A stretch of 50,828 bases of DNA, from positions 1 through 50,828 of the forward strand of contig JACPPA010000017.1 of assembly GCA_016191285.1 (NCBI GenBank). Direction: 5' to 3'. Position 1 is the first letter of the stretch; the number at the start of each line of letters is the position of its first letter. This DNA comes from Gammaproteobacteria bacterium. Lineage in GTDB: Bacteria > Pseudomonadota > Gammaproteobacteria > Ga0077536. A model generated the notes under the pieces. That model saw only the letters and a list, made by a program, of their open reading frames with translations. It had not been told where the DNA came from and did not search any database. Positions 20,427 through 29,785 of the stretch are shown here, piece after piece. Made by a program: the position numbers and the translations under genes.

Positions 20427-21793
20427 ATGAGCATGATGATCCTCGACGGCATCCGCGTACTCGATTTCACGCAGTATCTGGCGGGGCCCACCGTCACGCG
20501 GCTGATGGCCGAGATGGGGGCTGAGATTATCAAGATTGAAATCGCGCCCAATGGCGATCCTTCACGCGGTCTGCCGCTGGCCGATCGCAATCGCAGCGGC
20601 TATTTTGTGCAGCAGAATCGGGGCAAACAAAGCCTTGGTCTCGATCTGCGACAGCCCGAAGCACTCAATATTGTGCGTGAGGGAATCTCTGCAAAAGGCA
20701 GAGATTCCTGCGGCGCAGGGATGTGCCGCCATTTTCAATGGTCGCAGACCGTTGAAAATGAAGGAAAACAAAAATCACACTTTTTGTTTTCCGTACTCTG
20801 AAAAGTCCAGGAGGGACTTATTCAGAGTTTCCTGAGCTCGTCACTAAGGTTGATGTAGTGGTCGAGAATTTCGGCCCCGGCGTGATGGAAAAGCGCAGCC
20901 TCGCGTACACGGATCTACGCGCGATAAAACCCGACATCAGCATGGCGTCGGTATCTGCTTATGGGCGCGAGAGTCCGTTGTCGCACAAAACCGGATTCGA
21001 CTGGGCGGCACAAGCGTTCGCGGGCTTAATGCACATGACGGGCGATCCCAATGGTCCGCCGATGCCGATGGGCTATGCGGTCGGCGACATCGGCAGTGGT
21101 GTGCATGCGTTTTCTGCAATCGGCTTTGCGCTATTTCATCGCGGCCGCACCGGACAAGGCCAGTGGTTGGACCTCAGCATGGTCGATGCAATGTTTCACA
21201 TGCAGGACATCGCACTACAAGCCCACACATTAAGTAAAGGCGCGTTCACATCGAATCGCATGGGCAATCATCATGCGTTGGTGTGTCCCTTCGGAGTGTT
21301 TAAAGGACCAAGCGGTTATGTGGCAATCCTCGCGTTACAACCGCAATGGAAAAACGTGTGCGCGGCACTGGGACGGCCTGAGCTCGAACACGATGAACGC
21401 TTCGCGCTAGCCGATCGTCGTGCTGCGAATCAACGTGACGTAATTGCCATCATTGAAGAATGGCTCGCTCATTTTCCAAACAATGACGCCGTGATCGCAC
21501 ATTTAGAACAGCATCGTGTGCCCTGCGCGCCGGTACTGAATCCCGTTGACGCCCTGCGGCATCCGTATTTTTTAGAACGCGAAATGGTGCGCTTCATCGA
21601 GGATCCGATATTAGGCTCACTTGCGATACCGGGCTTTCCGCTGCGCTTTTCTGTGCAGCCCGAACGGCCTGATCTCGTCGCACCCTTGCTTGGTCAACAC
21701 AACGCGCAGGTGTTGTCGCAATTGTTGAGCTACGATGCGCAACGGATTTCCGCGCTCACGCAACGAGGCGTCCTGGTCGCTGGGGAGCGATAA
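20427..21793 (+). pseudogene. Type III CoA-transferase interrupted by a 151-bp hairpin element
   Basis: The 5' part encodes GIRVLDFTQYLAGPTVTRLM, GAEIIKIE and NRGKQSLGLDLRQPEA (85 codons to 20681). After the insertion the same frame resumes with LVTKVDVVVENFGPGVME at 20837 and continues through the catalytic AVGDIGSGVHA to 21793. Removing 20682-20832 and one copy of the flanking TGAG restores a continuous 403-codon gene. As it stands the first part ends in foreign sequence at 20801, and the second would need a new start. It was likely a functional enzyme until recently; no other frame damage is seen. Confidence 0.88.
20682..20832. mobile_element. 151-bp hairpin-array element (MITE-like) inserted in the CoA-transferase gene
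   Basis: The element starts GGAATCTCTG and ends CAGAGTTTCC, imperfect terminal inverted repeats, and is flanked by TGAG on both sides (20678-20681 and 20833-20836). It consists of five consecutive hairpins: 20682-20708, 20710-20729, 20730-20760, 20763-20792 and 20795-20828. It encodes no protein. A second copy lies at 23068-23205 with compensatory base changes in the stems. It should be mobilised, if at all, by a transposase encoded elsewhere. Confidence 0.8.
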
Positions 21794-21869: not shown

Positions 21870-22575
21870 ATGCGTGCGGCAGTATTTCAGAAACCAACCG
21901 CAATGCTCACCCTCGCCGATGTCCCCACGCCGCATTGCGAAGGCGCTGATCTCATTGTGCAGGTTAAGTGCTGCGGGATTTGCGGCTCCGATCTGCACAT
22001 GGCAGACATACATGATCGCCGCGGCGCGATGGCGCCGTTGCCGCCTGGCACGATCATGGGCCATGAATTCTGCGGCGAAGTAGTCGACATCGGACCTCTC
22101 GCAGCGAAAAACTGGAAAATGGGTGAGCGCGTCACCGCATTGCGGTATATCGCGTGTGGTACATGTCGTGCTTGCTTGAATGGCATGGGGTATCACTGTG
22201 CGAGTGTGCGCTACTGCGGCTTGGGCAACTTGCCCGGTGCTTATGCGGAATATATTCGCGTTGGCGCGGCAGAAACATTGCGTTTAACGCCCGGCGTTGA
22301 TTGGCAACGCGGCGCGTTAGTAGAACCCCTGACGGTGGCATTGCATGCTGTCGAAGCGGCGCGCTTCACACCGGGCAAAAATGTATTGATTCTCGGCGCG
22401 GGTCCGATTGGGCTTGCGGTTGCACTGTGGTGCCGATACTTCGGCGCGCATCACATCATTGTCTCAGACAAAATACCCACACGCCTCGCTCTCGCCCACG
22501 CAAGTAGGTGCGACCGCAACGATCAATGCGGGCATCGAGAATGTGATTGAACGCTACAAAAACATCGCGCTGCGT
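21870..22575 (+). pseudogene. Zinc-dependent alcohol dehydrogenase (MDR family), frameshifted and truncated
   Basis: MRAAVFQKPTAMLTLADVPT starts a medium-chain dehydrogenase. The catalytic zinc site CCGICGSDLH and GHEFCGEV, and the structural-zinc cysteines CGTCRAC, are intact. The NAD-binding VLILGAGPIGLAV is also intact. Near 22500-22505 the frame is lost: AHAS continues in another frame as VGATATINAGIENVIERYKN up to about 22575. After that, similarity ends in hairpin-rich DNA. The family has ~340 residues; about 235 remain. It probably oxidised a secondary alcohol in the neighbouring CoA pathway. Confidence 0.8.
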
Positions 22576-22800
22576 GTTTTTTGCTGCTGTTACTGCTACG
22601 CGCTACGGTTCGGCTCTGCACGATCCGAAGGGCCGTCCTTGTCCCTACCCTCATGAGGTAGGGACAAGGACGGAATCGTGGGCTGCGATAACGACTTTCG
22701 CGGCTTCAGCCGAGGGAAGACGTAAGTATGACGTCTGCAGATCGAACTTCCGCTGCCCAGAACGATAGTGCGGGCGCGAAGGCGCGCCACTCTATTTTGA
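22576..22800. repeat. Hairpin-rich segment ending the dehydrogenase pseudogene
   Basis: It holds a perfect 17-bp inverted repeat, CCGTCCTTGTCCCTACC at 22633-22649 and its complement at 22657-22673. Shorter hairpins follow: CGGCT/AGCCG at 22701-22712 and AGACGT/ACGTCT at 22718-22736, and a GC-rich one near 22768-22792. No protein is recognised. It may be a different type of structured repeat that truncated the dehydrogenase gene. Confidence 0.5.
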
Positions 22801-23067
22801 TTTAGGAAACGCGGATCGAGAATCTACGCTACTGTCGCACATGCGAGTGGGCACTTCAGGTCCAGCGTCGGCATCGAAGGGTCCACCGCGTCGCCGGTGA
22901 TCAATCAGGGCATGGTTCGCTAACAAGAATCGCGTCAGTCAAAAATCGAACGTATTTTCTCGCGGCGCCACGGCTCGCTTCAAGGCATAAACGCATTGTG
23001 CTGCCGGCAATCCGGGCCTCTTCGCGAAATAATTCGCGCAACGATAAAAATATTTTTGAGTATTTAG
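22801..23067. other. Non-coding stretch between two hairpin repeats
   Basis: No gene recognised. Minus-strand frames exist at about 22901-23164, but they lack family similarity and run into the repeat at 23068. Possibly the remains of an older gene. Confidence 0.3.
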
Positions 23068-23205
23068 GGAAGCTCTGCAAAAGGCAGAGCTTCCCGCGGC
23101 ACAGGGAGGTGCCGCCATTTTCGATGGTTGCAAACCATTGAAAATGAAGGGAAGCAAAAATCATACTTTTTGCTTCCCGTACTCTGAATAAGTCCAGGAT
23201 GGACT
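23068..23205. mobile_element. Second copy of the hairpin-array element, 3'-truncated
   Basis: Same order of hairpins as 20682-20832: 23068-23094, 23096-23115, 23116-23146, 23149-23178, then half of the fifth ending near 23205. Stem changes relative to the first copy are paired: GGAATCTCTG/CAGAGATTCC becomes GGAAGCTCTG/CAGAGCTTCC, and GGAAAACAAAAA becomes GGGAAGCAAAAA with the matching change on the other arm. The right terminal repeat is missing. Confidence 0.75.
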
Positions 23206-23649: not shown

Positions 23650-24517
23650 ATGAGAGCCCTCAACTACCAACTGCGACAACTTTGTTTGAAGAACCGCGAT
23701 GGGAGCTACGCGACCCAGGCCGCAGCGACTGTGGTTGCTGTCGCGCATCGCGAACCAGCTGCATGAACTCGGGTATCGGCAATTGGAAGCCGATTCCCTG
23801 AAACCGAAACACGTTGAAGCGCTCACTAAATTCTGGCTCGCGGAGGAGCTCGCGATTGCAACGATCAAGAACCGGATGGCGGCGTTGCGTTGGTGGGCGA
23901 TGGAGGTCAATCGTCAGAACGTCATCGCCCGGACGAATGATCATTACGGCATTCCCGACCGGGTATTCGTCACCAATGAGAGCAAGGCGCAGACGCTCGT
24001 CGCCGAGTCGCTCACCAAGGTTCGCGATGAACATGTGAGGATGAGTCTCGAACCGCAAGCCGCGTTCGGACTCCGCCGGGAGGAGGCCATCAAGTTCATT
24101 CCTAGCTATGCCGATCGCGAGGAAGTTTTGGTTTTGAAAGACACTTGGACGAAGGGGGGCAAGGCGCGCGAGATCCCGATTCGAACGCTTGAACAGCGAA
24201 ACTTACTGGATCGCGCGCACAAACTTGCGGGACGTGGCTCGTTGATTCCGGCAGGTCGCAACTACGTGCAGCAACTCCGGGTGTACGAAGGCCATACTGC
24301 CCGCGCCGGACTCTCGAAATTGCATGGCCTGCGGCATGCCTACGCCCAACAGCGTTATAAAGAGCTGACCGGATGGTTGTGCCCGGCTGCCGGCGGTCCT
24401 GAGTCAGACGCACTGACGCCGGACCAGAAAGCCCGAGACACAGAGGCGCGACTAACTATCAGCCACGAACTCGGGCATGAACGGGAAGGCGTGACAGCAA
24501 TTTATCTTGGTCGCTGA
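23650..24517 (+). pseudogene. Tyrosine recombinase, integrase-domain type, copy A (frameshifted near its start)
   Basis: Starting at ATG 23650 the protein begins MRALNYQLRQLCLKNRDGSY ATQA, then the frame is lost at about 23721. It resumes in the frame QRLWLLSRIANQLHELGYRQ and continues to 24517. The rest is intact and has a recombinase layout: FGLRREEA, HGLRHAYAQQRY and ELGHEREGVTAIYLGR, giving R, HxxR, H and Y. A two-base loss, or a one-base gain, explains the break. The excisionase-like gene follows after 13 nt. Copy B at 27602 is about 85% similar in the overlapping part by eye. Confidence 0.8.
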
Positions 24518-25488: not shown

Positions 25489-25498
25489 CTTAAGAATT

Positions 25499-25670
25499 TG
25501 GCGCGCCCGGGGAGATTCGAACTCCCGACCCCCTGGTTCGTAGGCCGGGAAGCGCGTCAGGGGATTTTATTTATCAACAACTTGCGACACCTGCCAGTGT
25601 GCTAATGAGCTTCGATGACACAAAAATGAGTCCGAATATGGCAGTGCACTAGCACACTTTTGAGCACACC
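25499..25670 (-). repeat. Attachment-site-like repeat, copy 1: tRNA-Arg(ACG) 3' end plus arm region
   Basis: On the minus strand 25499-25543 is the 3' 45 nt of a tRNA gene: CTACGAACCAGG (loop with anticodon ACG), the T-arm GGGAGTTCGAATCTCCC and an encoded CCA. The 5' half of the tRNA is absent, so similarity begins in the anticodon loop, a common crossover site for tyrosine recombinases. The remaining ~125 bp contain CAGTGTGCTAATGAGC, GCACTAGCACAC and GCACACC, possible arm-type integrase sites. The same 172-bp arrangement recurs at 29614-29785. Confidence 0.75.
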
Positions 25671-27473: not shown

Positions 27474-27601
27474 ATCAACCCCAGGTGGCATAAGCATGGA
27501 ACCTTCGTTTGGCTTCTGGAATGTTGAATCTCGACTCCGGGAAGTCGGACGGGATTAATAAAGTAAAAAAAAAGCCGGCGTGATTTATTTTGGGTCATCC
27601 G

Positions 27602-28255
27602 ATCAAGAATCGGATGGCCGCCTTGAGGTGGTGGGCCATGAAGGTTAACCGACAGAACGTCATCGCCCGGACGAATGATCATTACGGCATTCCCGACCGG
27701 GTGTTCGTCACCAATGAGAGCAAGGCGCAGACGCTAATCGCCGAACAGCTTGCCAAAGTTCGCGATGAACATGTGCGGATGAGTCTCGAACTGCAGGCAG
27801 CGTTCGGACTCCGCCGCGAAGAAGCGATCAAGTTCATTCCGACCTACGCCGACCGTAAAGACACGCTGGTTCTGAAGGACACCTGGACCAAAGGTGGCAA
27901 GGCGCGCGAGATGCCAATCCGAACGGAAGCCCAGCGCGAGGTCCTCGAACGCGCACATCGCATGGCTGGGCGTGGCTCCTTAATTCCAGCTGACCGGAAC
28001 TATGTCCAGCAACTCCGAGTGTATGAAGGTCACACCGCAAGGGCTGGCCTGTCGAAGCTGCATGGTCTGCGCCACGCCTATGCCCAACAGCGTTATAAAG
28101 AGCTGACCGGATGGAGGTGTCTGGCTGCCGGTGGCCCCGAGTTCGGCGCACTGACGCCGGAACAGAAAGCCCAGGACAAGGAGGCGCGGCTGACCATCAG
28201 CCGCGAACTCGGGCATGAAAAGGAGGGCGTGACAGCGATTTATCTTGGTCGCTGA
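27602..28255 (+). pseudogene. Tyrosine recombinase, integrase-domain type, copy B (N-terminus missing)
   Basis: Similarity to copy A begins abruptly at IKNRMAALRWWAMKVNRQNV (27602), so about 75 N-terminal residues are gone. The remainder is open and intact to 28255: FGLRREEA, HGLRHAYAQQRY and ELGHEKEGVTAIYLGR carry R, HxxR, H and Y. The break coincides with a GGGTCATCCG motif at 27592-27601. The excisionase-like gene follows after 13 nt, as in copy A. Confidence 0.8.
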
Positions 28256-29598: not shown

Positions 29599-29613
29599 TG
29601 CGTAATGGCTAGT

Positions 29614-29785
29614 TGGCGCGCCCGGAGAGATTCGAACTCCCGACCCCCTGGTTCGTAGGTCGGGAGACGCGCTACAGGCGTTTATCAATCAATAGTTTGC
29701 GGCACCTGCCAGTGTGCTAATGAGCGTCGATAACAGGGAAATGAGTCGAGATATTGCGGGGCACTAGTACACTTTTTGGCACACC
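29614..29785 (-). repeat. Attachment-site-like repeat, copy 2: tRNA-Arg(ACG) 3' end plus arm region
   Basis: Same layout and same length (172 bp) as 25499-25670. On the minus strand 29614-29658 carries CTACGAACCAGG, the T-loop TTCGAAT and the encoded CCA. Similarity continues beyond the tRNA part through CACCTGCCAGTGTGCTAATG and GCACTAGTACAC. The tRNA 5' half is again absent. Confidence 0.75.

Follow-up and report, generated by a model that had tools for sequence, protein, structure and literature searches.

What is the 151-bp run of five hairpins at positions 20682..20832 (+ strand) of the window (the whole 50,828-nt stretch of DNA analysed here), and what is it kept for? The sequence-only reading had described a 151-bp element with imperfect terminal repeats (GGAATCTCTG / CAGAGTTTCC), TGAG on both flanks and five back-to-back hairpins, and all of these are present. 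The left terminal repeat is GGAATCTCTGCAAAA (20682..20696, + strand), the right one is GGAAACTCTGAATAA (20818..20832, - strand), and the target duplications TGAG occupy 20678..20681 and 20833..20836. The interrupted gene (20427..21793, + strand) encodes a CoA-transferase of family III, and its frame contains 15 stops with the element in place. Judged from the sequence, the element is a real and fresh insertion, since in-silico excision of the element together with one TGAG restored a single open 403-aa CoA-transferase frame. Elsewhere in the window, a separate near-perfect palindrome (CCGTCCTTGTCCCTACC..., 22633-22673) lies downstream of an alcohol dehydrogenase frame ending at 22550, and two repeat pairs with 83-85% identity were noted (23862-24161 / 27600-27899, 300 bp; 25498-25670 / 29613-29785, 173 bp).

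The element is repetitive in the source genome (G000; 5.10 Mb, 60 contigs). Of 1698 candidates, 85 were scored with a covariance model (R1), and at least 84 of them matched (E <= 1e-5), truncated copies being included in the count; in a BLAST search of the genome with the element, 40 of 134 candidates were scored. The YTAR tetramer plus the end pattern (one mismatch allowed) was matched 175 times (107 forward, 68 reverse), and the reversed control gave 0 and 0. Full copies in this genome mostly have an identical YTAR tetramer at both flanks, the window copy itself having TGAG. In another genome, G159, 42 full copies were read in 40 regions taken from its best-scoring matches, with exact 4-bp duplications at 38/42 and YTAR at 31/42. 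The check proposed with the first description of the element (many copies, covarying stems and TGAG-like duplications) was thereby run and all three were found, covariation being treated below; the many copies and the 4-bp duplications agree with its suggestion that the element is a miniature inverted-repeat transposable element (MITE). Two IS5-type elements of the source genome have ends and the YTAR duplication in common with the MITE and lack the hairpin array: one at C48 (1191 bp, CTAA duplication, transposase frame broken) and one at C40 (1158 bp, TTAG duplication, intact 317-aa transposase), the latter transposase matching NCBIfam IS5_4 NF033581 with 337 bits (cutoff, 140) and Pfam DDE_Tnp_1 and DUF772. 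The left end of the C48 element is identical to that of MITE subfamily b over 15 bp (16 bp), and the window copy agrees with it at 14/15 (15/16) positions; the right ends are similar only. Past the 16 bp of the left end, the longest aligned match between the MITE and either IS5-type element was at most 11 bp, and the array is therefore no simple deletion derivative of the interior of either element. Three features by which IS5-family MITEs are recognized (IS-like terminal repeats, a 4-bp YTAR duplication and a resident IS5-family transposase) were found, and transposases of the IS5 type most likely mobilise the MITE in trans.

A second copy in the window (subfamily b; 23064..23203 including its TTAG, + strand) had been described as keeping every stem, with paired changes in hairpins 1, 2, 3 and 4. 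Four stems are indeed kept; hairpin 5 is not, the copy being cut inside it with the last 15 bp absent (possibly by an assembly fault at the cut), and paired changes were found in hairpins 1, 3 and 4, hairpin 2 being changed on one side only (G-U versus A-U). Truncated copies (positions 1-136 or 16-151 only) were considered as a biological form and rejected, their end counts being skewed by contig orientation: of the unpaired genuine ends at loci L001-L064 of the source genome, 21 faced left and 4 faced right relative to the contig, and all YTAR-plus-end matches were 107 versus 68 (p = 0.004). Since biology should be blind to contig orientation, an assembly fault is suspected in the copies of this genome that are 15 bp short, mostly without the right end in contig orientation. 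Note that contig joins at such copies (e.g., window 23068-23203) may be wrong. In the one-contig genome G159, 42/43 copies read were full-length, a weak control given that its 40 regions came from the best-scoring of 130 matches. Variant forms were also seen: long forms in which hairpin 5 is enlarged by about 73 bases that form further hairpins in a run (L131, L132 and L133 on contigs C31, C50 and C33, and L030 on C52), and one element apparently nested in another (L005:1446-1652).

The five hairpins of the window copy, all on the + strand, are hairpin 1 (20682..20708; the left end and an inverted copy of it, covarying), hairpin 2 (20710..20729; apical loop AGGGAU, that is, ANGGAN), hairpin 3 (20730..20760; the stem varying most), hairpin 4 (20763..20792; loop YCRCRY, whose first and fifth positions covary) and hairpin 5 (20795..20828; apical loop AGGAG). 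Folded as RNA, the copy had a minimum free energy of -82.6 kcal/mol, against a mean of -36.5 for shuffled sequences (z = -11.5), and 0/200 shuffles were equally stable.

The spread of the element was surveyed with a covariance model (R2) built from 19 representatives (match threshold, E <= 1e-8). Matches were found in 9/36 genomes of the family of the source (these 36 also being the order as sampled), in 68/369 genomes (50/272 genera) of a draw from the class, and in 47/398 genomes of a draw from the phylum (Proteobacteria, to judge from the named relatives), of which 43/47 were outside the window's class. Matches per genome amounted to 130 in G159, 83 in G054 and 41 in G295, and to 53 in RHO3_bin_19, 32 in B4_bin.12, 22 in Centralia_MAG_32 and 21 in CoA_2_bin.44, with 3 in Candidatus Thiosymbion oneisti; as to the range of copy number, 32 matches were counted in a 1.4-Mb draft and 130 in a 3.2-Mb single-contig genome. 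Four elements (L250, L265, L270 and L272) have the same hairpin layout with different terminal sequences, which suggests that the hairpin array rides on other ends too. A single query against each of plasmid, phage and viral sequences gave no match.

Selection on the structure was evaluated in three alignments, all fitted to the structure: A5 (the 19 representatives, including two of some lineages), A6 (28 other genomes of the class, spanning 20 families) and A7 (29 genomes taken from the phylum draw; 24 of them are in one family, so that they do not make 29 independent cases, and one, L272, is from the window's own class). For A6 and A7, the highest-scoring genomes were used (28 of 66 other positives in A6, 29 of 46 in A7), each represented by its best element. 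The fraction of paired cells was 97.2% in A5 (77.8% when shuffled), 97.7% in A6 (80.9%) and 94.2% in A7 (70.9%), both sides had changed at 36/55, 40/55 and 51/55 pairs, and the covariation score was 0.545 (0.164 shuffled), 0.464 and 0.583, respectively; in the controls with shifted pairing it was at most 0.123 in every set. For hairpin 3, arm identity between 12 lineages was 0.49 and pairing with the own arm 0.99 (computed on elements with five called hairpins, after removal of two of L130, L076 and L078). In a MAFFT alignment of the copies of the source genome, double changes occurred at 6/55 pairs. The earlier proposal that structure and not sequence is selected is supported by strong covariation in three sets of genomes and its collapse in the shifted controls: as read from these alignments, the five-hairpin fold is under selection, and compensatory changes maintain it in different genera and classes.

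Two of the five loops are conserved in sequence as well. GGA was present in the loops of hairpins 2 and 5 in 51/57 and 54/57 genomes, and in loops 1, 3 and 4 in 0, 2 and 0; this retention in hairpins 2 and 5, and not in 1, 3 and 4, is the new observation here. In the 28 genomes of the class, loop 2 was ANGGAN in 27 and AGGAU in 1 (A, G, G and A fixed; second base G, C, T or A), loop 5 contained GGA in 28/28 and A(N)GGA in 23, and loops 1, 3 and 4 had GGA in 0, 2 and 0. Among the 29 phylum-draw genomes, GGA was found in loop 2 of 23 (A(N)GGA in 22) and in loop 5 of 26 (A(N)GGA in 24), and in none of loops 1, 3 and 4; the stems of hairpin 5 differ widely among these genomes, the GGA loop being mostly kept. 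One search pattern for other lineages demanded GGA in hairpin 5, so that loop 5 of the lineages found with it is biased, and the tally was therefore taken from the 28- and 29-genome sets, for which it should be noted that R2 includes the GGA consensus and slightly prefers GGA loops. Within genomes, GGA was present in loop 2 of 34/34 and loop 5 of 33/34 full copies in the source genome (own copy L130 excluded), and in both loops of 25/25 full copies in G017 and 42/42 in G159. GGA was gone from loop 2 in G001 and in 3/5 copies of G008, and from loop 5 in 2/5 copies of G008, in G006 and in all 5 old copies read from G013 and G014. The source genome also has five short forms (L054, L055, L058, L313 and L314; 86-88 bp), which consist of hairpins 1, 2 and 5 only and keep both GGA loops (5/5 read); the spacing from GGA to GGA is 26 nt in the short form versus 91 nt in the window copy, and the minimum-energy fold of L054 is without hairpin 2. 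The hairpin 4 loop (YCRCRY in A5 and A6) is a second conserved motif beside the GGA loops, with positions 1/5 being T with A in 14, C with G in 12 and other in 2 of the 28 genomes.

The loops of hairpins 2 and 5 match the site of the CsrA/RsmA protein, and binding is predicted at 20717..20722 (site 1, hairpin 2 loop; GGA in 28/28 and 23/29 other genomes) and 20809..20813 (site 2, hairpin 5 loop; GGA in 28/28 and 26/29 other genomes), both on the + strand. In the accessible part of PMC7652899, the CsrA site obtained by SELEX is RUACARGGAUGU, in which AC and GU usually close a loop of six bases, CAGGA(U/A/C)G is the repeat found in CsrB, and RsmE binds ANGGAN hexaloops. The lineage L165 has exactly GUACAGGGAUGU, and the presence of at least two hairpins with GGA in the apical loop, by which RNAs of the CsrB/RsmZ type are recognized, was found here. 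SELEX ligands mostly had no more than four contiguous pairs, and high stem stability may be a disadvantage (PMC7652899, accessible part); the stems of hairpins 2 and 5 are longer than this and may weaken CsrA binding, which is a real point against the CsrA reading.

The folding strand was assessed from pairs other than Watson-Crick pairs. When stems were called by Watson-Crick pairing alone in 70 of 77 extracted elements (148-155 nt), the exceptional cells comprised 93 G·U, 7 A·C and 32 others, and the top strand is taken as the folding strand since G·U exceeds A·C there. States common within a lineage, or from lineages of one or two copies, were G·U 23, A·C 1 and other 10, and states private to a single copy were G·U 14, A·C 6 and other 21 (L130, L076 and L078 being filed under the label of the nearest query, not under their own genome). 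Because the ratio is 23:1 for shared and 14:6 for private states, lineages appear to be filtered for the top-strand fold and single copies to decay more freely. At interior pairs, G·U versus A·C was 23 to 4 (A5), 23 to 8 (A6) and 33 to 11 (A7) by cell, and 13 to 4 (p = 0.049), 14 to 8 (p = 0.29) and 22 to 10 (p = 0.050) by distinct state; with two register-uncertain pairs excluded, the 28-genome set gave 33 to 13 by cell and, when each distinct state was counted once, 19 to 12 (p = 0.28). The sense fold was stabler than the antisense fold in 16/19 (A5), 26/28 (A6) and 23/29 (A7). On these comparisons, the folding molecule is likelier to be RNA than top-strand single-stranded DNA. The sequence-only reading had offered a folded DNA strand and a structured RNA that travels; the latter is favoured by the excess of G·U over A·C and by the CsrA-motif loops, with transcription presumed, and for the former no positive evidence was obtained.

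The explanation that we favour, with a probability of roughly 0.7 on the sequence evidence, is that the element is a non-autonomous IS5-type MITE whose sense transcript is selected. IS5-type transposases would move it in trans, sense read-through transcripts of its copies would be the selected molecule, and hairpins 2 and 5 of the transcript would bind the host CsrA/RsmA dimer; the element would then serve as a mobile decoy resembling CsrB/RsmZ, or recruit CsrA to the transcripts into which it inserts. As to orientation relative to genes, ++ and -- copies were 8 and 12 of 37 (G000), 2 and 7 of 31 (G017) and 9 and 10 of 42 (G159); with a home-made codon score as the gene caller, no sense bias of the copies was found in these three genomes. 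Host-level cis regulation by each copy as the main selection is disfavoured by this lack of sense bias. For the same reason titration in trans is preferred to a per-copy role in cis, and our first guess is that a pool of read-through transcripts titrates CsrA.

The best of the rival explanations, which we regard as unlikely, is a plain IS5 MITE whose hairpins act as top-strand single-stranded DNA at replication or transposition, the GGA loops being contacted by a DNA-binding factor or the transposase. G·T is milder than A·C in DNA as well, so the excess described above would suit it; the top strand of the window copy also folds strongly as DNA (z = -12.4), and the insertions are indifferent to gene orientation. 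It is opposed by the two IS5-type relatives, which have the ends in common and no array, and by the loop pattern ANGGAN, which is that of a known RNA site (PMC7652899, accessible part). Still less probable is that the RNA fold matters and its partner is not CsrA, read-through transcripts being protected or processed (by RNase III, as for Correia elements) or Rho polarity prevented. The very stable fold would agree with this, as would the reported cleavage by RNase III of transcripts with Correia MITEs (PMC10969869, accessible part). Such a role needs neither GGA in two fixed loops nor short forms from which hairpins 3 and 4 in particular are absent. Template switching between hairpin arms (quasipalindrome correction), a process known for hairpins that would alter both arms together and so make compensatory changes with no selection on a transcript, may speed up double changes and is very improbable as the explanation, since it predicts G·U to equal A·C, against lineage-level states of 23 to 1 and a one-strand G·U excess that was seen in the first set and, counted by cell, also in the remaining sets, and leaves two constant GGA loops beside three drifting loops unexplained.

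The csrA gene was found in 12/12 genomes tested of the source family, including the host G000, whose CsrA protein we take to be close to E. coli CsrA. In the phylum draw, csrA was present in 220/398 genomes, namely in 45/47 element-bearing and 175/351 other genomes (Fisher, 9e-11), an association that is confounded by phylogeny; the two element bearers without csrA are assemblies that are 74% and 69% complete. Among the class positives it was found in 58/66 (54/57 among good assemblies), the 8/66 in which it was not found including 3 of the 57 good assemblies. Two element bearers, G506 and G280, have 9 and 8 CsrA-family matches, respectively.

To our knowledge, little is known of the selected content of bacterial MITEs. 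Here a single architecture is kept by one MITE family in different genera and classes, and the loops that are conserved in it implicate a particular host protein. We consider the odds somewhat better than even that this is a transposable family, widespread in the phylum, whose sole conserved content is a CsrA/RsmA-binding RNA under structure-level selection, either a selfish or a domesticated mobile sponge. If so, the number of CsrA sites in a cell would depend on how many copies of a mobile element it has, and, if the sponge reading is true, the element would rewire a global post-transcriptional regulator while amplifying.

For comparison with known systems, Rfam gave no match for the window or for 20 loci at the gathering threshold, nor a credible one for the element at E 10 (best, 0.84), and a literature search, largely without subscription papers, found no description of the element or of a CsrA-binding MITE. 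The TwoAYGGAY RNA, recorded for human gut, gammaproteobacteria and Clostridiales (PMC2864571, accessible part), is similar in having, to judge from its name, two AYGGAY loops; no Rfam family so named matched the window element. Closest in concept are the structured MITE transcripts of Coxiella and an IS200-derived RNA. The QMITE1/2 elements and small RNAs of Coxiella (PMC5896051) are likewise bacterial MITEs yielding structured transcripts, whereas QMITE1 has a length of 300-400 bp and repeats of 2-4 bp, and full-size QMITE2 has repeats of 7-9 bp; the accessible text of that paper has 0 occurrences of CsrA. The IS200 5'tnpA RNA of Salmonella is a transposon RNA acting in trans with 3 GGA sites, and its authors name CsrA among the proteins worth testing; unlike the present element, it is part of the IS200 transposase mRNA, and the accessible part of the source (PMC12594629) makes no claim that GGA hairpins are selected. 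With IS5-family insertion sequences and the MITEs derived from them, the element shares the 15-bp ends, the 4-bp YTAR duplication and resident IS5-type elements with related ends, whereas its interior is a conserved fold and did not come from one of the two resident IS5 elements by deletion. With CsrB/CsrC and RsmX/Y/Z it shares several hairpins per RNA with GGA at the apex (PMC7652899, accessible part); it differs from them in having no Rfam match, in carrying two sites per unit, and in being mobile and present in tens of copies.
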